This document shows, piece by piece, positions 6,242-22,557 of a stretch of DNA of 44,385 bases (positions are counted from its first letter, which is position 1; every line of letters begins with the position of its first letter). The notes under the pieces were generated by a model that saw only the letters and a program-made list of their open reading frames with translations, was not told the DNA's origin and made no database searches. The DNA comes from Anaerostipes sp. GTDB lineage: Bacteria; Bacillota; Clostridia; Lachnospirales; Lachnospiraceae. The translations under genes were made by a program, and so were the position numbers. The stretch lies in assembly GCA_028697725.1 (NCBI GenBank), contig JAQVEG010000021.1:1-44385 (forward strand), given 5' to 3'.

Positions 6242-7993
6242 TTACAAAATAAGTAAAATATCATAAATGGCTGCCTGATAATTTAGGGGATTTCGATGTT
6301 GATAATCAAATAATATATATGTTTCTTGTTCTAGTAAATCAATATTCTCTTTATTCTTATACTTTGTCACATTATATTTAAATTTCTCCAAATGTGTCAT
6401 TTTACGAAGCTGTCTACGATCATATTCATCATAATCCTTTAAATAGTTATGCTCTTTGGATTCTTTATCATAAAACATATGAAGTTGATCTTTTGTAACA
6501 CTGTATGGTAAAAGAAAATCTGGTCGATTTTTTAGATTTTCTCGTAAATATAAATCATATGCTAATAATTCTTTATACATCTCGTATTTATCCTCAGAGA
6601 CACATGTTTGAATGAACTCTAATAATATTTTATATCTGGATATTCTTGTATGTTTTATCATGTGATATCCATTTTCTTCGTAAAACTTACCTAATTCAAG
6701 GTATAGCTGGAACTTAGATTCGTATTCTTGTCCAAGGGTAAAGATGGTTGCTTCAAATTGACGGCTATTATAATAAACCTCCACCATCTCTTCTACTCCC
6801 TTTAACAAAAGGACATCCTCATAGGAGAGCCATTTTGTGTAAAGAACTTCGTAGGGAGGCTGACTTTGAAAGACCATACCGTAAGAATCCTTCATCTCTT
6901 CCATATAAGAACCCTTTAGCACCTTTAAAAATCCAAGCTGTAACTGTTCTGGTTCCACAGCGTAAACATCGTCAAAGGAACACTGAAAGCTTTTCATATC
7001 TTCGTATGGAAGTCCAGCAATTAAATCTAAATGCTGATGTACATTTTCTCCAGCATTGATTCTTTTTACAACACTTGCTACATGATGAAAATCCATTTTC
7101 CTTTGAATCTCATCAATGGTTTTAAGGTTTGTTGATTGGACACCGATTTCTAACTGAATACAGCCTGGACGCATTTTTTCAATGAGATTTAATTCTTCTT
7201 CATTTAGCAAATCTGCCGCAACTTCAAAATGAAAGTTGGTAATACCGTTGTCATGATCTAAAATAAACTGAAAGATATCAATGCAGCGCTGATGGTTACA
7301 GTTAAAGGTACGATCTACAAACTTTACTTGTGGAATCTTTGCATCTAAGAAAAACTTAAGTTCCCTTTTTACAAGATCCAAATCTCGAAAACGTAGACAC
7401 TTATCTACAGATGATAGGCAGTAGCTACATGAAAATGGGCAACCTCGGCTAGATTCATAATAAATAATTTTGTTCTTAAACTTTTCTAAGTCTTGGTATA
7501 CAAATGGAACTTCACTTAAATCCATTACCTCACGCCATGGATTTTCTTGAATGCCATTTTCTGTTCGATAGGTGATTCCTTTCACATTCGAAAGGGATGC
7601 AACTTTGCCATGATAGTAATCTAAGACTTCTACAAATGTCTTTTCACCCTCTCCCATCATGACTCCAGTTACCTCTGGGAGTTCTTCTAGAACCTTTTTT
7701 GCATCATAAGAAACCTCGGGACCTCCAAGCCAGATAGGAATATCCTTATATAGCTTTCTGATTTCCCGAAGTATACTCTTTACATAGGTTATATTCCAGA
7801 TATAACAAGAAAAACATAAAATATCTGGTTTCTTTTTATATAAATCCATTAAAATATCATCGGTCTGCTGGTTGATGGTATATTCTGTAATCACAATCTG
7901 ATCAAGATATTCTTTTGCATAAGCCTTTAATGAATAAACAGCTAAATTTGAATGGATATATTTTGCATTTATTGCAGTTAAAATAATGTTCAT
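6242..7993 (-). CDS. B12-binding-domain radical SAM protein with DUF4080
   Basis: 583 residues. The N-terminal 150 residues look like a cobalamin-binding-type Rossmann domain (MNIILTAINAKYIHSNLA, then LGGPEVS and GEGE). The radical SAM core carries the CxxxCxxC iron-sulfur motif at Cys185, Cys189 and Cys192 (RGCPFSCSYC). It is followed by a TIM-barrel part with DLIAGLPYED, and a C-terminal region of the DUF4080 type (about residues 400-583). The usual DxHxxG cobalamin motif is not visible, so B12 binding is doubtful. Members are common in Clostridia and their substrate is unknown. It appears to be monocistronic; AAGGAGATTATC precedes the ATG. Confidence is high for the family and low for any specific reaction. 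Confidence 0.88.
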   Translation of the reverse strand: MNIILTAINAKYIHSNLAVYSLKAYAKEYLDQIVITEYTINQQTDDILMDLYKKKPDILCFSCYIWNITYVKSILREIRKLYKDIPIWLGGPEVSYDAKKVLEELPEVTGVMMGEGEKTFVEVLDYYHGKVASLSNVKGITYRTENGIQENPWREVMDLSEVPFVYQDLEKFKNKIIYYESSRGCPFSCSYCLSSVDKCLRFRDLDLVKRELKFFLDAKIPQVKFVDRTFNCNHQRCIDIFQFILDHDNGITNFHFEVAADLLNEEELNLIEKMRPGCIQLEIGVQSTNLKTIDEIQRKMDFHHVASVVKRINAGENVHQHLDLIAGLPYEDMKSFQCSFDDVYAVEPEQLQLGFLKVLKGSYMEEMKDSYGMVFQSQPPYEVLYTKWLSYEDVLLLKGVEEMVEVYYNSRQFEATIFTLGQEYESKFQLYLELGKFYEENGYHMIKHTRISRYKILLEFIQTCVSEDKYEMYKELLAYDLYLRENLKNRPDFLLPYSVTKDQLHMFYDKESKEHNYLKDYDEYDRRQLRKMTHLEKFKYNVTKYKNKENIDLLEQETYILFDYQHRNPLNYQAAIYDILLIL

Positions 7994-9655: not shown

Positions 9656-11479
9656 TTAATGTTTGCTTTGAAAATATATAAATTCATCAATTGCTTTGAA
9701 AATATCTTCAAAGTCTTCTTTTGGTGCGGTTTCTATATATTTTTCTAGTATATATTTTTCTTTTTTACGATAAGGACCATAGAATAAATCAAATAAATTG
9801 TGCCCGCGAACATAAATTTTGATATCCTCCATGTGTGCTTTCATCTCTTCTTTGGAATCAAAATTTTTACCCATTATTTCAATGAGATGTTTTCCACTTT
9901 TAATTCGATGGAGATATTCGTTCCATGCACTCCAAAGTCGATTGTAAAATGCTTCTTCACTATCTACAATTCCAAGCTTTGTCATAACAATGGGATTTAA
10001 AAAATAATTTTCAAAAGAATAATATTTTAAAATAAGCACGTTCTTTCTTGTGACTTTTGGAAGCTGGTCAATATCCTCTAGATTTCTCTGATCATAATAT
10101 TTACACAATGATAATCCTAATTCTTCAGGATTCTTTCCATCTCCATCTCGAATCATAAGAAATTGGTGTTTTAAATAAATTTGATTCATATATTTTAAGT
10201 TTGCATAGGTCTTAATATTAGTACAGCTATTAGTTGTAATAATTGCGATTCTCATTTCTGTATAATATCGATTTAATAATAATGGGAGCCTGTTTTTATC
10301 TTGCTTGCCTTCCACAATAAATACAAATTCCACATTTAAAAGATCATTTGCAGTATAGCCTAAATCATCTAAAATCATACCTAAATCCGTCTTTTCTTGT
10401 ACTTGTGATTCACAGTTTCTATTTAGTACAATCTGACGAATTTGACGCTGATTAAAATTAAATAAAAGGTTTGGTGAATGAGTGGAGAATATTACTTGAT
10501 TCTTCCTAGATAATCGATATAACACTTCGCTGGCTATCTTTTGAAGTTCTGGATGTAGAAATAGTTCTGGTTCTTCCACCATAACAATACATGGAATGGT
10601 ACTTGGCTCATTAATGTAAGCCTCTAGCAAAGAAAGCATATAAATACTTCGCATACCTTTTCCCAAGTGTTCTACTGGGATTGCTACATCTCGTTCTTTA
10701 TTGTACGCTTCTGCTTTTACTTTCAGCATTTCATTAATGTCATAATCCATATAAAATGAAATGGTATCATATCCTCCATTTCTACGAAAACTATCATTGA
10801 CTCGCTTTTCAAATTGGTCAATATTCATAAGATAGAGTTTATACTCAAACAACTTTGAGGCCTCAAATGCATTTAACTCTTCAGGAGTTTTTTGGTGAAT
10901 TAAACCAATACAATTAAAGCAATGAGTACATACCTTAGTTCTATCAAACATACAGCAGTTGGTTCGCATAAGTTTAAATAATTCATCTTCTTGAATTAGC
11001 AGCAAATCATTTTGCATCTGCTCCATCTTTCGTTCAGAATTAATGACATAGGTTGTCGGAAATACCTCTGGAATATAGCGGTTATTCTTCTGAAAACCAT
11101 CTTGAAACCTAGCCGTTCCCTCTTTGTTACATACAAAGGTAAATGTCAATTCTTCTTCAAGATAAGAAGGAAGTTTTTTGCAGAAATCTTTATACCACAA
11201 ATCATATTTTTTATATTGGCTTACAATTCCATTTTCATGAAGCAATGATAGATCATCTTTTGTTATATGTAGTGAAATAGATATCTCGATATTTTTCCCA
11301 AGTTCATCAAAATCATTTTCATTGATTTGGTAATGACCACTAACAGAATTGAGTGCCTGTAAAAGAGATGTCTTTCCTGCATTATTCTTTCCAACAAAAA
11401 TGAGAGCATTTTGAATGTTCTTGATTTCAAGGTTTTTGATAGACTTAAAATTCTGGACATGTAAATAAGTAATCTGCAC
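9656..11479 (-). CDS. OLD-family ATP-dependent endonuclease (AAA ATPase plus TOPRIM)
   Basis: 607 residues. An N-terminal SMC/RecF-like ATPase has Walker A GKNNAGKT at residues 30-37, a signature-like LGKGMRSIYML, Walker B IVMVEEPELFLHPE near 300 and the switch STHSP. A TOPRIM domain begins near 390 (VEFVFIVEGKQDK, then IRDGDG). This is the layout of OLD nucleases, some of which act in phage defence. A cluster of cysteines (175, 176, 184, 187, 190; CC-x7-CxxCxxC) in the ATPase domain is an unusual insert that could bind zinc or an iron-sulfur cluster. The start is the GTG at 11479, since AGGAGG lies 8 bases ahead; an earlier in-frame GTG at 11488 touches that site and cannot use it. No GajB/UvrD-like helicase or reverse transcriptase is next to it, so it is a class 1-like solitary gene. 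Confidence 0.85.
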   Translation of the reverse strand: MQITYLHVQNFKSIKNLEIKNIQNALIFVGKNNAGKTSLLQALNSVSGHYQINENDFDELGKNIEISISLHITKDDLSLLHENGIVSQYKKYDLWYKDFCKKLPSYLEEELTFTFVCNKEGTARFQDGFQKNNRYIPEVFPTTYVINSERKMEQMQNDLLLIQEDELFKLMRTNCCMFDRTKVCTHCFNCIGLIHQKTPEELNAFEASKLFEYKLYLMNIDQFEKRVNDSFRRNGGYDTISFYMDYDINEMLKVKAEAYNKERDVAIPVEHLGKGMRSIYMLSLLEAYINEPSTIPCIVMVEEPELFLHPELQKIASEVLYRLSRKNQVIFSTHSPNLLFNFNQRQIRQIVLNRNCESQVQEKTDLGMILDDLGYTANDLLNVEFVFIVEGKQDKNRLPLLLNRYYTEMRIAIITTNSCTNIKTYANLKYMNQIYLKHQFLMIRDGDGKNPEELGLSLCKYYDQRNLEDIDQLPKVTRKNVLILKYYSFENYFLNPIVMTKLGIVDSEEAFYNRLWSAWNEYLHRIKSGKHLIEIMGKNFDSKEEMKAHMEDIKIYVRGHNLFDLFYGPYRKKEKYILEKYIETAPKEDFEDIFKAIDEFIYFQSKH

Positions 11480-11541
11480 TTGTGACACCTCCTGATATTA
11501 TAAAAATACATCCATAGATTTCCTTTTCAGATAATAGTTTT

Positions 11542-12892: not shown

Positions 12893-12942
12893 ATACAATA
12901 AAAAGAAGCAATTTAAACGAAATGTCTAAACTGCTTCTTTTC
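12893..12942 (-). terminator. Intrinsic terminator of the glycyl-radical/PTS operon
   Basis: On the minus strand AAAGAAGCA-GTTTAGAC pairs with GTTTAAATT-GCTTCTTT, about 17 base pairs with one or two mismatches and a short ATTTC loop. It is followed by TTTTT-ATT. It lies just after the EIIBC stop at 12949. Confidence 0.85.
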
Positions 12943-12948
12943 AGTGTG

Positions 12949-14424
12949 TTATTTACAAAGCTTTCTAAATTCTTCAGTAACAAAATCTACTTTTGTTCCT
13001 ATCACAACTTGAAGATTTTTCTTGTCTGGGTGAATAACTCCTGTTATTCCAGAAGATTTAATTATCTTATCATCCACCAATTCATTGTTTTTAATCACAA
13101 GACGTAGTCTGGTAATACAATTATCAATATTTTCAACATTGTCTTTTCCACCAACACCTTCTAAAATAATTCTTGCTATTTCTGTAAAATCATTGTTTGC
13201 AAGAATCGTTTTTGTCTCGTCGGTTATTTCATCCTCATCTTCTCTTCCTGGGGTCTTTAAATTAAATTTGAGAATAGCAACTTTGAATGAAATATAGAAA
13301 GTAGCGAATGCCGCCAACCCCAAAGGAATAATCATCCATGTATTGTTTGCCGCTGGCAGTGATGATGAAAAAATCAAATCTGTTGCACCTGCTGAAAAGC
13401 AAAACCCAGCACGAAAGCCAATCAATGTAGTGATAACTCCGAAGATACCATAAAGTGCTGCATATAATACATACAATCCTGGAGCTAAAAACATAAATCC
13501 GAATTCAAATGGTTCTGTTACCCCACAAACAAAAGAACAAATAGCTGCAGAGGCTACCAATCCAATGGCCGCTTTTTTTCTATTATCCTTTGCACAGTGA
13601 ATCATGGCAAGTGCTGCTCCTGGAATTCCAAACATCATACACGGGAAAAATCCTGACATATACTCACCTAAACTCCATGCTACATCTGATGAAGTTTTTC
13701 CAGCCCAGAAGTTAGTCAAATCTCCGATTCCAATAGTGTCAAACCAGAATACATTATTAAGTGCATGATGGAGTCCTGTTGGAATTAATAAACGATTCAA
13801 GAATCCATAAATACCAACACCGACAGCACCTAATCCTGAAATCCATTCTCCAAGTGAAATCAATCCTCCAAATACCAATGGCCAGATAAATAGTAAAACA
13901 ACGGATACTATAATTGAGGTAACTCCAGCTACAATTGCGACGCAACGTTTTCCGCTAAAGAATGACAACCAATCTGGTAACTGTGTGTCTTTAAATTTAT
14001 TATAGCAGACAGCTCCTATAATTCCTGCTAAGATTCCGATAAAAGGATTCTCGATTTTATCAAAGGCAAGTACAGAATTTGCATTTTTAGCAACTGCAGG
14101 CATAATTGTTTTCACAAAATCTGTTGATAACAATGTGGTAATCATTAACCAAGATGCCAAAGAAGCCAATGCTCCAGTTCCGTTGTTGTCTTTCGACATA
14201 CCCATTCCAACACCAATTACAAATAATAGTGCAATATGATCGATTAATGCAGAGCCTGCTTTTACTAAGAATAATCCGATTAACGGGGCAGTTCCTGTTA
14301 CATTACCACCTTGCATTGCTGCGGGACAAAGGAAGTATCCAATTCCCATAAGCAATCCACAAATAGGAAGACAAGCAACTGGTAAAATCAATGCTTTCCC
14401 TAAATTTTGTATATGTTTCATCAT
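12949..14424 (-). CDS. nagE: PTS EIIBC component, GlcNAc type
   Basis: 491 residues. The EIIC membrane domain (about residues 1-390) has the glucose-superfamily signatures GLHHALNNVFWF and GVTEPFEFGFMFLAPGLY; these fit the N-acetylglucosamine (NagE) branch better than the glucose branch. A charged linker (GREDEDEITDET) leads to an EIIB domain with the phosphorylated cysteine in NIDNCITRLRL (about Cys436). It imports and phosphorylates a hexose derivative at C6, taking phosphate from the EIIA made by the preceding gene. It is last in a seven-gene operon with NagA-like, NagB-like, aldolase and glycyl-radical enzymes, so the sugar may be GlcNAc or a modified amino sugar. The gene symbol reflects family only. 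Confidence 0.9.
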   Translation of the reverse strand: MMKHIQNLGKALILPVACLPICGLLMGIGYFLCPAAMQGGNVTGTAPLIGLFLVKAGSALIDHIALLFVIGVGMGMSKDNNGTGALASLASWLMITTLLSTDFVKTIMPAVAKNANSVLAFDKIENPFIGILAGIIGAVCYNKFKDTQLPDWLSFFSGKRCVAIVAGVTSIIVSVVLLFIWPLVFGGLISLGEWISGLGAVGVGIYGFLNRLLIPTGLHHALNNVFWFDTIGIGDLTNFWAGKTSSDVAWSLGEYMSGFFPCMMFGIPGAALAMIHCAKDNRKKAAIGLVASAAICSFVCGVTEPFEFGFMFLAPGLYVLYAALYGIFGVITTLIGFRAGFCFSAGATDLIFSSSLPAANNTWMIIPLGLAAFATFYISFKVAILKFNLKTPGREDEDEITDETKTILANNDFTEIARIILEGVGGKDNVENIDNCITRLRLVIKNNELVDDKIIKSSGITGVIHPDKKNLQVVIGTKVDFVTEEFRKLCK

Positions 14425-14446
14425 AACAATTCTCCTTTTCTACTTC

Positions 14447-14941
14447 TTATCTCTTCTTTTCAATAAGTGTCAAAATTGTATCTCCCGCATTTACAGATTG
14501 TTCATTTATTGAAATAAATTTTTCATAATCTGATATATTACAGACAATTACGGGTGTCACTGTCTGAAATCCTGCATCTTCAATTGCTTTTAAATCTACA
14601 GTCAATAATAAATCCCCTCTTTTTACCGTATCATCATTCTTTACATGTGGTGTGAACGGACCTCCGTTCATTTTAACGCTGTCAAGTCCTACATGAACAA
14701 TCAATTCAGCACCAAAATCTGTTATCATACTTATTGCATGCAAAGTATCAATCACTTGAATAATCTTTCCATCTGCAGGTGCATATATTTTACCTTCTAA
14801 TGGCTGAACTGCAATACCTTCTCCAAGCATTTTTGTACTAAATAAAGGATCAGGTACTTTCTCTAAAGGTACAATTATTCCAGTTGCAGGGGATGCCAGT
14901 GTATACTCTTTTCTCTTCTTGTTTTCAAATAATTGAAACAT
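14447..14941 (-). CDS. PTS EIIA component, glucose family
   Basis: 164 residues, a stand-alone EIIA of the glucose (Crr-like) family. The phosphorylated histidine is His83 in LIVHVGLDSVKMNG; the partner histidine is His68 in IDTLHAISM. The usual VKRGDLL segment is present. It passes phosphate from HPr to the EIIB domain encoded next (22 bases downstream). Its start codon overlaps the last base of the NagA-like gene, so the two are probably translationally coupled. In Firmicutes the EIIA domain is often fused to EIIBC; here it is separate. Confidence 0.92.
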   Translation of the reverse strand: MFQLFENKKRKEYTLASPATGIIVPLEKVPDPLFSTKMLGEGIAVQPLEGKIYAPADGKIIQVIDTLHAISMITDFGAELIVHVGLDSVKMNGGPFTPHVKNDDTVKRGDLLLTVDLKAIEDAGFQTVTPVIVCNISDYEKFISINEQSVNAGDTILTLIEKKR

Positions 14942-16065
14942 TAATAATTTCCTCCTACGATTACATGTTTGATTGAAATATCTTTATCAAATAAAACAAG
15001 ATCAGCATCATACCCTTTTCGTATTAATCCTTTTTTATGGGATATTCCACAATATTGTGCGGGATTATAAGTTGCCATTTTTACAATCTTGTAAAGAGGA
15101 TATTTGGTTTCACGACTTAAGTTGCGAATCGCTTCATCCAGTGTTAATAAAGTCCCGGCAAAAGTTCCGTCTTTTAATTTCGCTGTTCCATTTTTTAGAC
15201 GAACTGGTTGTCCACCAAGTTCATATATCCCTTCTGGCATAGTGCATCCCATCATGGCATCTGTAATTAAAATTATTTTATCTGTACCCTTTTGTTTTAG
15301 TGCAATTCTTAAAGCTGCATATTCAATATGAATCCCATCTGCAATAAATTCTGTTGTAATATCACTGTCAAAAACAGCTCCTACTACTCCTGGGTTTCGA
15401 TGTATAAAAGGTGTCATTGCATTATAGAGATGAGTTGCATGACATACACCATCTTGAATTGCATTGATTGCAGTTTGATAATCAGCCATAGTATGTCCCA
15501 TTGATGCATGAATTCCATTATTCTTCAAATACTGGATTAATTTTGTACTTCCCGGCATTTCCGGAGCAAGTGTTACTGTAATTACATCCGATTCATAACC
15601 ATCTATCATTTTTTTGATGGCGGCTACCGAAGGTTCTAATACAAACTCTGGATTTTGTGCTCCCAATCTATCTGGATTCACAAATGGACCTTCTAAATGC
15701 ACTCCGATTATATTAGCACCATCTGTTTTCTCATGTTTCATTTGATGTACTAACATAACAACTTTTTGAATGGAGGGTATATCCATTGTCATTGTTGTAG
15801 GAACAAATGATGTGGTTCCATGCTTCACAATGGATTTTGCAATTACATTCAATGCTTCTTTTGTTCCTTCCATGGTATCTCTGCCACCAGCACCATGAAT
15901 ATGAATATCTATAAATCCTGGTGATAAATATAAACCTTGAGCATCTATCACATGGGTATCATTCATATCTGTTGGATTTATTTCTGTAATTTTATCATTT
16001 ACTACTCGGACAGAACCTTTTTGAATTCCATCCGGGTAAATTATATTGGCATTTTTGATTAACAT
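14941..16065 (-). CDS. nagA: NagA-like N-acetylglucosamine-6-phosphate deacetylase with a substituted active-site His
   Basis: 374 residues of the amidohydrolase fold. NagA removes acetate from GlcNAc-6-phosphate. Seen: the HxH motif DIHIHGAGGRD (about 54-62), the metal-binding Glu125 in GVHLEGPF, His191 (MGHT), His212 (THLYNAM), His246 (DGIH) and the catalytic Asp269 in LITDAM. The loop after LEGPF, normally KGAH or KGTH, is LGAQ here (Gln137), so the histidine thought to help polarise the substrate carbonyl is lost. The protein is full length and probably a deacetylase, but perhaps on a different N-acyl sugar phosphate. It lies 18 bases after the NagB-like gene and shares one base with the EIIA gene. 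Confidence 0.88.
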   Translation of the reverse strand: MLIKNANIIYPDGIQKGSVRVVNDKITEINPTDMNDTHVIDAQGLYLSPGFIDIHIHGAGGRDTMEGTKEALNVIAKSIVKHGTTSFVPTTMTMDIPSIQKVVMLVHQMKHEKTDGANIIGVHLEGPFVNPDRLGAQNPEFVLEPSVAAIKKMIDGYESDVITVTLAPEMPGSTKLIQYLKNNGIHASMGHTMADYQTAINAIQDGVCHATHLYNAMTPFIHRNPGVVGAVFDSDITTEFIADGIHIEYAALRIALKQKGTDKIILITDAMMGCTMPEGIYELGGQPVRLKNGTAKLKDGTFAGTLLTLDEAIRNLSRETKYPLYKIVKMATYNPAQYCGISHKKGLIRKGYDADLVLFDKDISIKHVIVGGNY

Positions 16066-16083
16066 TTAAGCACCTCTTTATGA

Positions 16084-16815
16084 TTAAGAAAGATCTTGTG
16101 CAGCAGCCTTATCTACGATTACTGTAATATCTTTATGTAATTTTAGTAATGTAGCTGGTACATCTGTTCTCAGCGTTTCACTATGGATAAATTTAGCAAT
16201 AATCTCGCTCTTTGAATCACCACTTGCTACAAGAACAATTTTTTTACTTTTAAAAATATTTTCAATTCCAATAGTCATTGCTTCTACAGGCACTTGATTC
16301 ACATCGTCAAAAAATCTTGAATTATCCTTGATGGTAGCTTTTGATAATTTTTGAATATGGGTTGCCAGGCTTAATTCATTGGATGGCATATTAAATGCAA
16401 TATGTCCATCTCTCCCAATACCTAACAAAATAAGATCGATACCACCCTCGTCTTTGATTTTTTGATCAAAGTCTAATGCTGCCTGATTCAAATTCTGATT
16501 CACAGCATCTGGTCCAAATGTATTTTTTGTATCAATGTTTACATGTTGATATAAATAATGGTTCATAAAATAGTTGTATCCTTGTGGATGGTTTTTATCT
16601 AATCCTATGTATTCATCCATGTTCAAGGATCTAATTTGACGAAAATCCAAACCTTCCTCTTTATGGAGACGAATCATTTCTTCATATGTTCCCATAGGGG
16701 ATGATCCTGTAGAGAGGGCAAGGAGTGCCTGTGGATTTTCTTTTATTTCTTTAGCAATCAATGCTGCTGCCTGTGAACTCATCTCTTTGTAGTCTTTTGT
16801 TACAATTATCTTCAT
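16084..16815 (-). CDS. nagB: NagB-like glucosamine-6-phosphate deaminase family protein with a substituted catalytic Glu
   Basis: 243 residues, the usual length for Firmicute NagB (isomerising deaminase, GlcN-6-P to fructose-6-P and ammonia). Seen: the phosphate loop LSTGSSPMGTY, the acid-base Asp67 in NMDEYIGL, and Asp136/His138 in GIGRDGHIAF. The conserved continuation FNEPG is FNMPS here: Met143 replaces the glutamate that, with the Asp and His, forms the ring-opening triad in E. coli NagB. The next segment SNELSLATHIQKL also lacks the Arg-rich SRTR pattern. An altered substrate or loss of ring-opening activity is therefore possible. It lies between the aldolase gene and the NagA-like gene in the operon. 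Confidence 0.85.
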   Translation of the reverse strand: MKIIVTKDYKEMSSQAAALIAKEIKENPQALLALSTGSSPMGTYEEMIRLHKEEGLDFRQIRSLNMDEYIGLDKNHPQGYNYFMNHYLYQHVNIDTKNTFGPDAVNQNLNQAALDFDQKIKDEGGIDLILLGIGRDGHIAFNMPSNELSLATHIQKLSKATIKDNSRFFDDVNQVPVEAMTIGIENIFKSKKIVLVASGDSKSEIIAKFIHSETLRTDVPATLLKLHKDITVIVDKAAAQDLS

Positions 16816-16828
16816 CTTCTCTACCTGC

Positions 16829-17509
16829 CTATAAATCTAAAAATGTTTTATTTTTACCTACTAATCCCTCAAAATCACTGTTGAATTTATCAATGGCTGC
16901 ATCTACAACTTCATTTTTCATAAATGCTTCCCATACTTCTACATTAATTGCTGCGGCTTCAATTCCGTATTTTGCTAATTCAATCACTTGTTTTGTTGTT
17001 TTAAAGCTTGCAGAGGAAATGCCTGTTGGAAGATGATACGCATTTAAAATATCTTGAATATCCTTTGCAACCTGAATTCCATCTCCGCCTAGATTATCAA
17101 TACGATTGATATATGGTGCTACAAGATCAGCTCCTGCTTGTGCAGCCAAGAATCCTTGAGCTACTGTATAAATACCTGTTGCACAAATTTGATATCCTTC
17201 TTTTTTCAAAGTTTTAATTGCTTTTAATCCCTGTGGATTTGCAGGTACTTTTACATATGTATTTTCCTTTCCAATAGCATCTGTAATTACCTTTGCTTCT
17301 GCAATCATTCCTTCTGCATTTGTTGATACAACCTGAGTCATTAATGTCTTATTAGAACCAATGAATTCTCGTATTTCCTTTAATACTTCCAAAGGTTGTC
17401 GTCCTGTTTTACTTAAAATCGTAGGATTACTTGTTACTCCATCGACTGGATATAAATCCCATAGTTCTTTTACTTTTTCAATGTCTAAATCATCAATAAA
17501 TAATTTCAT
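16829..17509 (-). CDS. fsa: Fructose-6-phosphate aldolase-type transaldolase (FSA/TalC family)
   Basis: 226 residues, the size of E. coli FsaA (220). The Schiff-base lysine is Lys87 in TYVKVPANPQGL. Gln59 (LMTQVVS) and Tyr133 (VAPYINRID) are the residues that mark FSA rather than true transaldolase, where Glu and Phe are found. FSA enzymes cleave fructose-6-phosphate or 1-deoxy-fructose-6-phosphate to glyceraldehyde-3-phosphate and dihydroxyacetone or hydroxyacetone. In E. coli, FsaA and FsaB work with the glycyl-radical enzymes YbiW and PflD, and the same pairing is found here. It lies 29 bases after the activase gene. Confidence 0.88.
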   Translation of the reverse strand: MKLFIDDLDIEKVKELWDLYPVDGVTSNPTILSKTGRQPLEVLKEIREFIGSNKTLMTQVVSTNAEGMIAEAKVITDAIGKENTYVKVPANPQGLKAIKTLKKEGYQICATGIYTVAQGFLAAQAGADLVAPYINRIDNLGGDGIQVAKDIQDILNAYHLPTGISSASFKTTKQVIELAKYGIEAAAINVEVWEAFMKNEVVDAAIDKFNSDFEGLVGKNKTFLDL

Positions 17510-17538
17510 TTTTCTCTCCTTTAATCTTGGTTTTCATG

Positions 17539-18459
17539 TTAAATTTTTGAATGGATTACTTGTTTTGTTGTAAATGACTGGATTTCTTTTACCCATTCAT
17601 CCACTGTTTTAGCTAACGGAACTTCTTTGGAATGATATGGCATTTTCATATCAAGGAGAGCCGCTTTCGATAAGCCCAATGGATGATAAGGCAGTACCTC
17701 CAAATACTCTACATGTGTTAATTGGTTTGCAAGTTCGCCAACTTTGCAGAAATGTTCTTGTGTATCGTTGATGCATGGAATCACAGGAAGCCGGAGGACA
17801 ATGGCTTTTCCTATCTTGTCTAGTTGCTTTAAATTATCAAGAATAATTTTATTATCAACCTGTGTAATTTCCTTATGTATGTTAGAATTCATATGTTTGC
17901 AGTCATACAAAAACAAATCTACATATGGTGCTATTTCAAGTAACGTTTCTGTGTTTGTAAATCCACTGGTTTCCATACAAGTGTGGATTCCAGCGTCTTT
18001 TGCACTCTTTAATAATAATTTTGTGAATTCTGGCTGATATAATGCCTCACCGCCAGATACAGTTAAACCACCTCCCGATGTTTTATAAAATGATTGATCT
18101 CTTACTACTGTTTTCATAATCTGATGGACTGTCATCCTTTGTCCAATTTGAGTTAGGGAATCATACTCACAAACATTTGTACATTTCCCACAAGCAATAC
18201 AATTTTCGCGATGAAATATATGTCCCTTGTTGTTAAATTCATGGCAATGATTAGGACAGACTCTGGCACACGCCATACAAGAAACACATTTGTTTTTCTC
18301 AAATCCTATTTGTATTTCTTTACTATTAGATTCTGGATTATGACACCATGCACATCGAAGTGGACAGCCTTTTAAATACACTGTGGTTCTTATGCCCGGT
18401 CCGTCATCTAAACAATATCTTGAAATATCAAACACTGTTCCTTCTATCATTTTTTTCAC
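17539..18459 (-). CDS. Glycyl-radical enzyme activating enzyme (radical SAM)
   Basis: 306 residues. The radical SAM motif CxxxCxxC is in YLKGCPLRCAWCHNPES near residue 30. An inserted pair of ferredoxin-type clusters follows (CVSCMACARVCP and CIACGKCTNVCEY), as in the activases of dehydratase-type and decarboxylase-type glycyl-radical enzymes but not in PflA itself. SGGEAL and METSGF are the usual SAM-binding segments. It makes the glycyl radical on the partner enzyme encoded two bases upstream. The start is GTG at 18459 after GAGGATTAAAG; an ATG three codons later (18450) is equally possible. Confidence 0.93.
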   Translation of the reverse strand: MKKMIEGTVFDISRYCLDDGPGIRTTVYLKGCPLRCAWCHNPESNSKEIQIGFEKNKCVSCMACARVCPNHCHEFNNKGHIFHRENCIACGKCTNVCEYDSLTQIGQRMTVHQIMKTVVRDQSFYKTSGGGLTVSGGEALYQPEFTKLLLKSAKDAGIHTCMETSGFTNTETLLEIAPYVDLFLYDCKHMNSNIHKEITQVDNKIILDNLKQLDKIGKAIVLRLPVIPCINDTQEHFCKVGELANQLTHVEYLEVLPYHPLGLSKAALLDMKMPYHSKEVPLAKTVDEWVKEIQSFTTKQVIHSKI

Positions 18460-18461
18460 CT

Positions 18462-20450
18462 TTAATCCTCATGTAATGTTCTTTCAATGATGACTTGTTT
18501 TAAATCAGGAGTTAAGCGATTAAAATATTCTGAGTATCCCCCAACTCGGACAACCAAATCATCATGTTTCTCTGGATGTACCATTGCATCTAGTAAATCT
18601 TCCTTTGAAGTAATGGTAATCTGCACCATTGCACCATTCTCTTCCATATATCCTTTTAATAATGCTTCCAACGAATTCTTGGCAAACTTTTTGTTGATTG
18701 ATAAATTAAGAGCATTCATTCCGTAAATATCCTTTTGATCAATTTTTGAAGCACTTAACATCATTGCTGTTGGTCCGTTGGTTGCTTTACCACTTAATGC
18801 ACCAATAGAATCATTGAGGGATTCACCTCTTAATCGGCCATCTGGAGTTGGACCAACTTTTTTTCCTTCTTTGGGATGTCGATTATATTGATGAGATGTT
18901 GGGCAACATTTTCCACCTCTATAACATTTCTTATCTTTATATAGTCCATAAAAATATGTAGTAAAATCATGAGCCAGTTGATCACAATCTTCATCATCTA
19001 CTCCATAATGAGGACATTTTTTTAGGAGTTCATATAAATGTTTATCTCCCAAATCCATTAATCTTAAAAATTCATCTGGTAAAAATCGTTGTTTATCAAA
19101 AATCAAATGTTTAATTGACAACATTGAATCAATAACATTAATCATTCCCGTCTCACTTGTAACGGCTGCGTTATATCTTGCTCCGCCGTTATTATAGTCA
19201 AGACCTGTATCAATACAATCATCAATGGTCAAAGAACGCATAGGATTTGGAAGATATTTTGCACGTTGTTCATGATTCCTCCAAATATCAGACAAGAATA
19301 AATTTACACCCTTTCTCACCTCATCTAAGTATCCATCATAAAATTCTTGAAATGTGGCTGCTTTTGGTAGCTGTTCCTGCATATAATTTTCAAAAATCAT
19401 TGCTAGATTTATATTTCCATCAATACCACCTGTATTTGTCATTCCAGCAATACATGTTTCTGTACAGCCTACAGGACAATATCGTTGTAAATCTTCCTTT
19501 GTGATTCCAGGGAATCCTTCTGGCAGCATAGTTTGAATCATCTCTTCATTATAGTAAGAAGGATTTCCACAACCACTGTAATTTGCCTCTAACGCAAGAT
19601 CCCAAATTTCCTGCGGCATATCTTTTGTTACACGTAAATTCATCTGTGGTCTGCGAAGTCCAGCTCCCTCTTTTAAACATATTTTTGTAATTTCGTTATA
19701 CTCAGGTCCAAGACAGCAATTCCATTTACCATTATCATTTACATTTTCAAATAACTCTCTGATTTCTTTTGAAATGTCTTCGCCCTTATAATATGGTGCC
19801 AAACCTGAATCTATCATTCCTACATTATCAACACCTTCAAGATACATAACATAATTCCAACAGACAATGGCTTCATATACGTTTCTTGCTGGTTGAAATG
19901 GCACTTGTTCTAAAGCTTCAATTAATTCTGAATCAGCGTCTATACTTTTTAAATAAGCAAGACCTCTGCTATGATAATTCCGAATACCTTCCAAAAGATC
20001 CAGTAGTCCTTCTCTCATATCTACATCTTTGATTTTTTTAATTCTTTCAATATATGAGTCAAACCCTTCTTTCAATATTCTTTCGTAGTGTGGTGTAGAG
20101 TGTGTATACCCACTAACCGTTATATATGCAGCACTTGGAACAACTGTAAAATTCGATTTATCCCTAACTTCCTTCATGATTTTAGCCCCTTGGGGACTCT
20201 TTTCATAAAGTGGAACATAATAATCTGGATTAAACGTCTTTGCACATTCTGGATACACTGCATATCCAGCATAATTAAGTACCCCGCTTGGGTATAATCG
20301 TTTGCCTCGATAATCATCGACTGGTCGACTTTCAAAATAACGTCTTTGTGCTCTTGAAAATCGAGAGAACAAACCTTTGTTTTCTTCTTCAAAAAAACCT
20401 GCTGCATAAGGTTCATTAATATCTAAAAACAATTGAACTTTTTCATTCAT
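18462..20450 (-). CDS. Glycyl-radical enzyme (PFL-like superfamily), short divergent type
   Basis: 662 residues, about 100 shorter than most family members. The glycyl-radical motif near the C-terminus is VVRVGGYSEYF with radical Gly638. The thiyl-radical site is CPVGCTETC, with Cys329 and the acid-base Glu331 (C-x-E); most eliminating members have GCVEP here. The Cys-Cys pair of pyruvate formate-lyase is absent, so a lyase or dehydratase reaction on a polyol-like substrate is more likely than formate production. The start ATG has AAGGAGG ahead of it, so the short N-terminus is real. It is the first gene of an operon with an activase, FSA-type aldolase, NagB-like, NagA-like and PTS genes. By analogy to E. 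coli YbiW/PflD, it may open a 1,5-anhydro ring of a sugar phosphate. This reaction is inference. Confidence 0.9.
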   Translation of the reverse strand: MNEKVQLFLDINEPYAAGFFEEENKGLFSRFSRAQRRYFESRPVDDYRGKRLYPSGVLNYAGYAVYPECAKTFNPDYYVPLYEKSPQGAKIMKEVRDKSNFTVVPSAAYITVSGYTHSTPHYERILKEGFDSYIERIKKIKDVDMREGLLDLLEGIRNYHSRGLAYLKSIDADSELIEALEQVPFQPARNVYEAIVCWNYVMYLEGVDNVGMIDSGLAPYYKGEDISKEIRELFENVNDNGKWNCCLGPEYNEITKICLKEGAGLRRPQMNLRVTKDMPQEIWDLALEANYSGCGNPSYYNEEMIQTMLPEGFPGITKEDLQRYCPVGCTETCIAGMTNTGGIDGNINLAMIFENYMQEQLPKAATFQEFYDGYLDEVRKGVNLFLSDIWRNHEQRAKYLPNPMRSLTIDDCIDTGLDYNNGGARYNAAVTSETGMINVIDSMLSIKHLIFDKQRFLPDEFLRLMDLGDKHLYELLKKCPHYGVDDEDCDQLAHDFTTYFYGLYKDKKCYRGGKCCPTSHQYNRHPKEGKKVGPTPDGRLRGESLNDSIGALSGKATNGPTAMMLSASKIDQKDIYGMNALNLSINKKFAKNSLEALLKGYMEENGAMVQITITSKEDLLDAMVHPEKHDDLVVRVGGYSEYFNRLTPDLKQVIIERTLHED

Positions 20451-20492
20451 TAGAAAACCTCCTTTTTCTAATTGTTATTGTTTAACAACTTA

Positions 20493-20576
20493 TCGCAATT
20501 ATATACCTTGCGATTAGTTGCTGTCAATAGTTTTTTCGCAACTATTTTAAATGTTTTATCTTGCGATACTTTGCGA
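20493..20576. promoter_or_regulatory. Operator array: five TTGCGA/TCGCAA hexamers
   Basis: TCGCAA or its complement TTGCGA occurs at 20493-20498, 20508-20513, 20536-20541, 20561-20566 and 20571-20576, within 84 bases between the divergent glycyl-radical operon and the DeoR-type gene. One copy abuts the -10 box and one lies in the promoter spacer. This arrangement fits repressor sites for the adjacent DeoR-family protein. Confidence 0.75.
20498..20527 (-). promoter_or_regulatory. Consensus sigma-A promoter of the glycyl-radical/PTS operon
   Basis: On the minus strand a perfect TTGACA (20527-20522), an 18-base spacer and a perfect TATAAT (20503-20498). The start codon of the glycyl-radical gene is about 48 bases further on. 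Operator hexamers overlap the spacer and the start region, so a strong but repressed promoter is expected. Confidence 0.88.
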
Positions 20577-20706
20577 TTAAGTGAAAAATCAAAAAGAACA
20601 CAAGAAAAAAGGGTATAAATTCACAATTTATTTTAAATTGAGACTCTTTTATTCCCAAGTTCTCTATGTTATAGTATAGTCAAATCATTTTTATAAGGAG
20701 TATCGT

Positions 20707-21468
20707 ATGTCAAAACAATTAACAGCCGATCGAAGAAATCAATTGGCTCAAATATTATTATCCAATGGAAGTATAAAAGTAGGGGATGCTTCAAAAGAAT
20801 TTGGCGTTTCCACTGAAACAATTAGAAAAGATATTATCTTTTTAGAAAAAGAAGGAATTGCCATCAAAAGCCATGGTGGAGCAACCATTGCATCTTCTAT
20901 GCTAGAACGCCCTGTAGAAAAAAAGAAAACGGAGAACAAAGATTCCAAGACAAGGATTGCAATTGAAGCACTTGCCCATATTCCACCCAAAAGTACCATT
21001 ATTTTAGATGCAGGTTCTACCAACTATACATTGGCAAAACTTTTGTCTTTAGAAAAAGATTTAACTATTTTCACTAATTCTATTATTGCTTTGCAGCTGC
21101 TAGTTAAGTCTGAGAATCATATATTTTCATTTGGAGGATTAGCACGTCCAAGTAGTTTTGGAATTATCGGAAAATGGGCGAATGAAGAACTCCGTTCCAT
21201 CCATGCTGATGTTTCTTTTATTGGAACTGATGGATTTTTGGATTTAGAGGGACCTGCAACAGCCTCCTATGAAGAAGCTGAATTTAAGAAAAACATTGTG
21301 GATGCCAGTGAAACATCCTTTATTCTTTCAGACAGTACAAAATTCCATAGTCGAACTCTATTTGAATTTTGCCACTGGTCAGAAATTGACTATTTAATTA
21401 CAGATAATCAAGCACCTAAGACTGCGGTAGAAAAGATACAAAATAATACAAATGTTATTATGGTATAA
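20707..21468 (+). CDS. DeoR-family transcriptional regulator
   Basis: 253 residues. The N-terminal DeoR helix-turn-helix is seen in RRNQLAQILLSNGSIKVGDA, then FGVSTETIRKDI and EGIAIKSHGGA. The C-terminal sensor domain (about 75-235) has the usual DAGSTNYTLAKLL and FTNS segments that bind a sugar phosphate. It is transcribed away from the glycyl-radical operon, and the space between holds five hexamer repeats. A repressor released by a phosphorylated pathway intermediate is the family pattern. The ATG follows ATAAGGAG. The tyrosine recombinase gene follows 21 bases later and may share its transcript. Confidence 0.93.
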   Translation: MSKQLTADRRNQLAQILLSNGSIKVGDASKEFGVSTETIRKDIIFLEKEGIAIKSHGGATIASSMLERPVEKKKTENKDSKTRIAIEALAHIPPKSTIILDAGSTNYTLAKLLSLEKDLTIFTNSIIALQLLVKSENHIFSFGGLARPSSFGIIGKWANEELRSIHADVSFIGTDGFLDLEGPATASYEEAEFKKNIVDASETSFILSDSTKFHSRTLFEFCHWSEIDYLITDNQAPKTAVEKIQNNTNVIMV

Positions 21469-21489: not shown

Positions 21490-22557
21490 ATGAAAACCCA
21501 ATCATATTATGATGATTTAACAGCAGAACAAACCATTAAATTAAGAGATTTAATTAAGAGACTGCCTCCTTTTTGCAAGGAATTTTTTCGAGCCATTGAT
21601 TCAAAAACCCAAGTAAGAACAAGAATTGCTTATGCATATGATTTACATGTATTTTTTGAATATTTGAGATCTGAGAATCCTGTTTATAAAAACTTTACGA
21701 TGCAAGATTTTAAACCGGAAGATTTAGATAAGATTGAATCTGTTGATTTAGAAGAATATATGGAATATCTAAAGATTTATCACAATGATGAAAAGCGAAT
21801 GCACAATACCGAAACAGGGGTATTTCGGAAGATGTCTGCTCTCCGAAGCTTTTATGCATATTACTATAAACGTCAGGTGATTAAGACCAATCCCACGTTA
21901 CTTGTAGATATGCCAAAGATTAGAGAACATGATATTATCCGTTTAGAAGCTGATGAGGTTGCTAAGTTATTAGACCATATTGAAAATGGAGGCAATCAAC
22001 TCACTGGACAGAGAAGAACCTTTTATGAAAAGACAAAGGAACGAGATTTTGCAATTATTACTCTCCTTCTTGGAACTGGAATTCGTGTATCTGAATTAGT
22101 TGGTTTAGATATTACAGATGTCGATTTTAATAATTACGGAATCCATATTATTCGGAAAGGACGCAAGGAAATGACAGTCTATTTTGGAGATGAAGTCGCC
22201 GATGCACTCGAAGGATATATAAATGGAACTAGAGCCAAAATCATACCAAAAGAAGGGCATGAAAACGCTCTCTTCTACTCTCTTCAAAGAAAACGAATTG
22301 GAGTGAAAGCAGTTCAGAATTTAGTAAAAAAATATGCAAAAGAGGTAACACCACTAAAACGAATTACTCCTCATAAGTTACGAAGTACCTATGGTACTGC
22401 TTTATACCAGGAAACAGATGATATTTACCTTGTGGCTGAAGTATTAGGTCATTCTGATGTAAATACAACGAGAAAGCACTATGCAGCTATGTCAGATACA
22501 AGAAGAAGACAGGCAGCAACCAAAGTTCGACTTAGGGAAAAGCACGATGATACATAA
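21490..22557 (+). CDS. Tyrosine recombinase, XerC/XerD-like
   Basis: 355 residues. The N-terminal SAM-like core-binding domain covers about 20-140 (RTRIAYAYDLHVFFEYL). The catalytic domain carries Arg in LGTGIRVSELVGL, Lys in RKGRKEM, the H-x-x-R box in PHKLRSTYG, then GHSDVNTTRKHY with the final His and the nucleophilic Tyr. All catalytic residues are present, so it should be active. It looks like the chromosomal XerD-like recombinases of Lachnospiraceae, not a phage integrase: no att repeats, excisionase or mobile genes are nearby. It lies 21 bases after the DeoR-type gene, with AAAGGAG ahead of its start, and ends in a strong terminator. Confidence 0.9.
   Translation: MKTQSYYDDLTAEQTIKLRDLIKRLPPFCKEFFRAIDSKTQVRTRIAYAYDLHVFFEYLRSENPVYKNFTMQDFKPEDLDKIESVDLEEYMEYLKIYHNDEKRMHNTETGVFRKMSALRSFYAYYYKRQVIKTNPTLLVDMPKIREHDIIRLEADEVAKLLDHIENGGNQLTGQRRTFYEKTKERDFAIITLLLGTGIRVSELVGLDITDVDFNNYGIHIIRKGRKEMTVYFGDEVADALEGYINGTRAKIIPKEGHENALFYSLQRKRIGVKAVQNLVKKYAKEVTPLKRITPHKLRSTYGTALYQETDDIYLVAEVLGHSDVNTTRKHYAAMSDTRRRQAATKVRLREKHDDT

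Follow-up and report, generated by a model that had tools for sequence, protein, structure and literature searches.

Closest described systems

1,5-Anhydro-hexitols are taken up by a phosphotransferase system (PTS) and then opened by a glycyl-radical enzyme (GRE) to 1-deoxyfructose 6-phosphate (Ma et al., as summarised in a passage of the review PMC12441222). Here we describe an operon that places a GRE among genes of amino-sugar catabolism, on a stretch of 44,385 nucleotides of Anaerostipes sp. (family Lachnospiraceae; contig JAQVEG010000021.1 of assembly GCA_028697725.1), hereafter the window, which is part of a 2.9 Mb draft genome (G000, contig C28). With a confidence that falls a little short of even, we read the operon as a system for the anaerobic breakdown of a C1-deoxy N-acetylhexosamine, most likely 2-acetamido-1,5-anhydro-2-deoxy-D-glucitol (1-deoxy-GlcNAc or 1,5-anhydro-GlcNAc, GlcNAc being N-acetylglucosamine) or its manno form.

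In the anhydro-hexitol pathway, 1-deoxyfructose 6-phosphate is cleaved by fructose-6-phosphate aldolase (FSA). The operon resembles the Escherichia coli pathway of the GREs YbiW and PflD in PTS uptake with phosphorylation at C6, in the pairing of a GRE with an activase and in the FSA step; it differs in having a GRE of another clade (22% identical to PflD and 23% to YbiW) and in the addition of dedicated NagA and NagB-like genes. HypD (trans-4-hydroxy-L-proline dehydratase), another GRE, acts on the carbon next to a nitrogen, its radical being helped by the free amine. It was the top solved-structure match of the operon GRE, for which chemistry next to nitrogen is likewise proposed here, whereas that GRE scores 181.3 bits against the HypD model (glycl_HYPD, cut-off 1100), falls outside the HypD clade and stands in a sugar operon. 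With ordinary GlcNAc catabolism (NagE, NagA and NagB) the operon shares a NagA, a NagB-family protein and a Nag-type EIIBC; unlike it, the operon adds a GRE, an activase and an FSA and has a methionine at the position of NagB Glu148, while an ordinary NagA-NagB pair lies elsewhere in the genome.

Structure and control of the operon

The operon and its control elements, in the order of transcription and followed by the divergent regulator, are as follows.

20561 to 20577, plus strand: paired operator TTGCGAT-N3-TTGCGAT, putative site of the divergent regulator (pattern search TTGCRATNNNTTGCGAT)
20498 to 20527, minus strand: promoter TTGACA-18-TATAAT upstream of the GRE gene, 12/12 consensus matches
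18462 to 20450, minus strand: GRE of 662 amino acids (PF02901 and PF01228; His117, Cys329, Glu331, Asp344, Gly638)
17539 to 18459, minus strand: GRE activase, a radical SAM protein with 4Fe-4S ferredoxin motifs (TIGR02494 331.5 bits, cut-off 174.35; PF04055 and Fer4)
16829 to 17509, minus strand: aldolase of the FSA type, 226 amino acids (best PDB match FSA, E 1.9e-46)
16084 to 16815, minus strand: NagB-like protein (TIGR00502 254.2 bits, above the cut-off of 236.9)
14941 to 16065, minus strand: N-acetylglucosamine-6-phosphate deacetylase NagA (TIGR00221 360.5 bits, above the cut-off of 225.65)
14447 to 14941, minus strand: PTS EIIA, glucose family (PF00358, 159 bits)
12949 to 14424, minus strand: PTS EIIBC, nearest the GlcNAc type (TIGR01998 543.3 bits, slightly below the cut-off of 553.2 for GlcNAc-specific EIIBC)
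about 12899 to 12944, minus strand: intrinsic terminator hairpin (-25.7 kcal/mol, z -7.4, 0/200 shuffles as good)
20707 to 21468, plus strand: divergent DeoR/AgaR-type regulator (PF00455 and PF08220)

The seven minus-strand genes are tightly packed, with successive gaps of 2, 29, 13, 18, -1 (an overlap) and 22 bases. A preliminary description of this DNA had reported a seven-gene operon with one promoter and a terminal terminator, and its gene set, coordinates and families were confirmed together with both signals; the span it gave takes in the divergent regulator as well. The promoter is the single 12/12 site in the scanned region; promoter-like sites as a whole numbered 43 against 44.8 expected from shuffles, so the weight rests on this perfect match. 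The terminator hairpin was not picked up by the consensus scan. The aldolase lies below the equivalog cut-off of TIGR00875 (201.5 against 245.95 bits; 193.8 bits for the FSA of the relative described below) and, in alignment with FsaA, keeps the equivalents of Lys85, Gln59, Tyr131 and Arg134, which we take to be active-site positions, Lys85 being catalytic. The regulator scored 180.8 bits with the AgaR model, short of its cut-off of 260.

A second genus carries the same catabolic module

When 200 genomes of the taxonomic family were searched at the protein level, one besides the window's, G184, had a close relative of the GRE (85% identical), the other listed matches being far lower. The GTDB contig scan likewise gave one relative, on the same contig, which belongs to the Lachnospiraceae bacterium isolate Mgla_MAG_15-bin_10. 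In this second genus a divergent DeoR-type regulator comes first, followed by EIIB, EIIC, EIID and EIIA of the mannose family and then by GRE, activase, FSA, NagB-like protein and NagA. The set of regulator, GRE, activase, FSA, NagB-like protein and NagA thus occurs in both genera, while the importer of the second is a mannose-family PTS; judged by gene content, the catabolic module and its regulator have been kept while the importer switched PTS family.

Between the two genomes, protein identity is 84% for the GRE, 65% for the activase, 78% for the FSA, 67% for the NagB-like protein, 70% for NagA and 75% for the regulator. Across these six genes, the proportion of nonsynonymous differences (pN) is 0.09-0.22 against saturated synonymous values (pS) of 0.77-0.92, which indicates that each of them is under purifying selection. 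Given this and the occurrence in a second genus, the gene set is more than a chance assembly. Conservation among the six is highest for the GRE (84% identity, dN 0.098), whose gene precedes those of the activase and FSA in each operon. The relative's locus (L039) also repeats the TTGACA-18-TATAAT arrangement. The operator pattern (TTGCRATNNNTTGCGAT) matches once in the window genome and once in G184, each time within the operon's control region, and read in reverse it has no match in either; a dedicated local regulator is therefore indicated, with the predicted operator as the likely site of the divergent regulator.

No GRE relative as close was found in the order sample (392 genomes) or the phylum sample (398 genomes). 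All 140 plasmid records that matched were below 60% identity, and four scans of viral contigs gave one GRE fragment. The GRE was at one point considered a protein of two genomes only, which was ruled out when the class sample (331 genomes) yielded full-length relatives at E 1e-80 or better in 9 other genomes. The contig scan, which depends on exact short peptides, had missed these subfamily relatives, and the count of two genomes is therefore valid for the operon as sampled and not for the GRE subfamily.

Placement of the GRE in an unnamed short-GRE subfamily

The protein has the hallmarks of its superfamily, namely an RVGGYSEYF loop with Gly638, a GCTE motif with Cys329 and an activase gene 2 bases downstream. 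His117, Cys329, Thr330, Glu331, Asp344 and Gly638 are invariant in 12/12 aligned subfamily rows, and His117, Cys329, Glu331 and Asp344 presumably correspond to the active-site set of glycerol dehydratase. With its Cys-x-Glu motif, the GRE is, as judged from these residues, one with a dehydratase/lyase-type active site; Asp344 lies one column off the PflD aspartate, which makes their equivalence uncertain. After HypD, the best solved-structure matches were diol and glycerol dehydratases and PflD, the best stretches starting at residue 249 or later. Every named NCBIfam GRE model stayed below its cut-off on the window GRE, including that of pyruvate formate-lyase (pyr_form_ly_1, 74.1 bits against 994.2).

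Ten loci (L113-L122) were fetched from the class sample, with GREs 34-45% identical to that of the window and with the same GCTE motif and His and Asp positions. In a 35-row tree, these ten, the window GRE and that of G184 formed one clade (support 100/99), separate from the PflD, YbiW, HypD-group and NanE-linked clades. Approximately unbiased (AU) tests on the 35 rows rejected joining this clade to PflD (p 1.4e-14), YbiW (p 4.5e-79) or the HypD group (p 5.3e-7), and tests on 27 rows gave 0.00018 for PflD and 0.00023 for YbiW. Within the HypD group, which also includes L018 and L051, the two members scanned, L011 and L012, score above the HypD cut-off. GREs such as L006 and L037 had not passed the motif filter for tree rows; when both were added in a quick 37-row tree, the 12-row subfamily stayed intact (SH-aLRT, a likelihood-ratio branch test, 100). 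On these trees the operon GRE is a member of an unnamed short-GRE subfamily. The preliminary description had named grouping with a characterised family of other function as fatal to its proposal, and for YbiW, PflD and HypD no such grouping was found. Its view of the GRE as an extension of YbiW and PflD, on the other hand, has to be given up in favour of a separate subfamily, the ten other fetched members of which stand in other contexts.

These contexts were tagged by BLAST searches of all open reading frames (ORFs) of at least 90 amino acids in the ten stretches, some of which (L113 and L115 among them) are clipped by contig ends, against 23 reference proteins at E 1e-6. An activase lies directly beside the GRE in L115, L116, L117 and L121 and one gene away in L122, and 4 of the 10 (L115, L117, L121 and L122) have a Gfo/Idh-type oxidoreductase gene nearby. 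Unlike L113-L122, the GREs of the window and of G184 have FSA, NagA, NagB-like and PTS neighbours; the amino-sugar genes were seen beside these two operon enzymes and no others. Since the subfamily relatives occur in other contexts, homology does not reveal the substrate. The two operon GREs have in common 102 residues that are absent from all 10 other aligned members, among them Pro326, Val327 and Cys333 beside the catalytic cysteine, His121 (Asn in 10/10 others), Ala428 (Trp, Tyr or Phe in 10/10), Asn271, Glu433 and Lys527. This pattern is consistent with a re-specialised pocket, although common descent of the pair also adds such residues.

NagA and an altered NagB-like protein

The operon NagA has NagA 2vhl as its best PDB match (E 7e-76) and contains the motifs LEGP, GHT, THLYNAM and TDAM, which we take to belong to the metal site; the relative's NagA also lies above the curated cut-off. 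Further NagA and NagB genes above the cut-offs are present in both genomes; those of the window genome lie side by side on contig C75. Against two of the over-cut-off NagB proteins the window's NagB-like protein shows 39-40% identity, and against a third, sub-cut-off NagB 27%.

In alignment, the NagB-like protein keeps the residues that correspond to E. coli Asp72, Asp141, His143, Arg172 and Lys208, the numbering and roles of positions 72, 172 and 208 being as we presume them. At the position of E. coli Glu148, however, it has Met143 (codon 16387-16389). Among six aligned NagB-family proteins, methionine occurs in the two operon copies and glutamate in the 4 others; of 397 family genomes, the two operon carriers and no others contain the motif GHI[GA]FNMP, and a search of 60 genomes gave the glutamate form GHI[GA]FNEP in 30. 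Glu148 of E. coli NagB contacts the catalytic His143 when the enzyme is in its R form (passage in PMC4008608).

Proposed pathway and alternative explanations

The steps and their order that we propose draw on gene families and chemistry, whereas the gene set, operon structure, conservation, active-site residues and paralogues are read from the DNA. The PTS would import the sugar and phosphorylate it at C6, and NagA would take off the acetyl group to leave a free amine at C2. The activase would then set the radical on Gly638, and a thiyl radical at Cys329 would abstract hydrogen from C2, next to the amine; breakage of the C1-O5 bond would give a C2 imine with a methyl group at C1 (1-deoxyfructosimine 6-phosphate). 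Hydrolysis of this imine, its ring already open, by the NagB-like protein would release ammonia and leave 1-deoxyfructose 6-phosphate, and FSA would split the latter into glyceraldehyde 3-phosphate and hydroxyacetone. Fructosimine is an intermediate in the NagB mechanism, and the proposed ketimine is its 1-deoxy analogue. A C2 amine carried through anhydro-hexitol-type chemistry would end in a ketimine, which would account for a NagB relative in the operon; because the imine would already be open, this protein would have no need of the glutamate near the ring-opening histidine; and because the radical would be aided by a free amine, NagA would have to act first. That a GRE of this uncharacterised subfamily abstracts hydrogen from the amine-bearing carbon of a 1,5-anhydro-hexosamine phosphate and passes the ketimine to a NagB derivative turned imine hydrolase is a more tentative proposal than the breakdown of such a sugar as a whole.

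A modified amino sugar, and not plain GlcNAc, seems to be what the operon is devoted to. This much of the preliminary description stands, backed by the second NagA/NagB-like set, the FSA, the phosphorylating importer, the Cys-x-Glu motif of the GRE, the changed NagB-like site and the natural occurrence of the sugar; the tie to YbiW and PflD that it had added does not. 2-Acetamido-1,5-anhydro-2-deoxy-D-glucitol was isolated from Virgibacillus dokdonensis, in what its authors describe in an excerpt of PMC5852480 as the first isolation from a natural source. Several points nevertheless weigh against its breakdown by this operon. That source is a deep-sea Virgibacillus, and no gut report of the compound was found in the open-licence PMC literature. 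The AU tests place the GRE outside both the YbiW and the PflD clades, and no FSA, NagA, NagB or PTS homologue was tagged beside the ten other subfamily GREs. The operon contains no gene for the use of hydroxyacetone. Both operon NagB-like proteins still score above the cut-off for glucosamine-6-phosphate deaminase (246.8 bits with TIGR00502 in the relative), and a Giardia deaminase keeps only 4 of the 7 E. coli activator-site residues, Glu148 being among the seven (passage in PMC4281351), so that loss of Glu148 alone is no proof of a new reaction. Among the matches listed from the open-licence PMC literature, none linked a GRE with NagA/NagB or with amino-sugar ring opening; one article, PMC12628686, contains both "glycyl radical enzyme" and "glucosamine-6-phosphate deaminase" and was judged by its title.

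The main rival fits almost as well, although we regard it as unlikely. In this scheme, an open-chain N-acetylhexosaminitol such as N-acetylglucosaminitol would be phosphorylated and deacetylated, and the GRE would act on the 2-amino-1-ol like trans-4-hydroxyproline dehydratase, taking hydrogen off C2 with loss of water from C1 to give the same 1-deoxyfructosimine 6-phosphate. It needs identical enzymes, explains the loss of Glu148 equally well and agrees with the finding that, of the GREs with solved structures, HypD matches best in sequence. Metabolome tables for faeces (excerpted from PMC10820811) and urine (excerpted from PMC11259003) include N-acetylglucosaminitol, but as to chemical identity these entries are annotations only, and in our judgement a dehydrogenase could do the same job without radicals. 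A galactosamine substrate was set aside because FSA is known for the D-fructose and not the tagatose configuration.

Rather more doubtful is the possibility that the operon serves plain GlcNAc, with NagA and the NagB-like protein converting GlcNAc 6-phosphate to fructose 6-phosphate, FSA cleaving this to dihydroxyacetone and glyceraldehyde 3-phosphate, and the GRE being a passenger or having a by-product or another sugar as its substrate. In favour of this, curated cut-offs are exceeded by NagA and the NagB-like protein in both genomes, and FSA is named after the cleavage of fructose 6-phosphate. Against it, each genome has NagA and NagB genes besides those of the operon, both operons encode a NagB-like protein with a changed active site, and the GRE is more conserved than the five other shared genes and stands ahead of activase and FSA in each operon. 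Exclusive service to plain GlcNAc, which the preliminary description had accepted as grounds for abandoning its proposal, is made less likely by the ordinary pair elsewhere, though it keeps some probability. We give very little credence to direct elimination of the C2 amine of a 2-amino sugar phosphate by the GRE in the manner of a choline lyase, with the NagB-like protein catalysing a step of the isomerase or lactonase type. The GRE CutC is known to eliminate an amine, and the NagB family includes 6-phosphogluconolactonases, whose model matches the NagB-like protein weakly (82 bits); the products that can be drawn, however, are not ketoses cleavable by an FSA-type aldolase, and the CutC model scores 119.1 on the GRE against a cut-off of 1050.

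Other GREs and neighbouring genes

The window genome has a PflD-clade and a YbiW-clade GRE at L087:5381-7741 (C50) and L086:7648-10065 (C54), and therefore may use 1,5-anhydro-hexitols as well. Another uncharacterised GRE type lies directly beside an activase and a gene of the NanE family (N-acetylmannosamine-6-phosphate epimerase) at L083:6632-10671 (window genome, C100), L099:6770-10763 and L101:4066-10763, in the last case downstream of a mannose-family PTS; in L084 and L100, a NanE homologue is some 3 kb and 6 kb, respectively, from such a GRE. Every one of the 5 fetched loci with a GRE of 54% identity or more shows this association, the further match G138:C2 being outside the fetched set. 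The NanE-linked GREs had appeared as close kin of the operon GRE in a first tree, which carried a long-branch warning; a later tree and AU test separated them, and the warning was gone once subfamily rows were added.

Behind PTS genes that by eye are mannose-family-like, the window genome also has an activase and an 800-residue GRE (L006; locus L060:4169-10221, C44), which stood alone outside the named clades in the quick tree. At L053:8238-12368 and L054:1049-5151, a 724-residue GRE and an activase accompany an aldo-keto reductase for which YdjG is the closest model (383.6 and 394.6 bits, below the cut-off of 550); in the 35-row tree, no other group outside the short GREs stood closer to them than these GREs. 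A viral-collection contig (L106:2501-4215) carries the C-terminal part of a GRE with an activase, adjoined by an ORF of 618 codons without a Pfam match. Elsewhere in the window are a XerS/XerC-like tyrosine recombinase gene on the same strand as the regulator and downstream of it (21490-22557; XerS model 198 bits, cut-off 267), a B12-binding radical SAM protein with DUF4080 (6242-7993) and an AAA_15/AAA_21 ATPase gene, OLD-like by eye (9656-11488).

Implications

If the proposed pathway is correct, radical sugar breakdown would extend from anhydro-hexitols to amino sugars, and the operon would constitute a complete radical branch of amino-sugar catabolism. It would also provide the first function within this GRE subfamily and an example of how the NagB scaffold may change when paired with a radical enzyme. 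Reduced amino sugars such as 1-deoxy-GlcNAc would then be predicted as nutrients for anaerobes.

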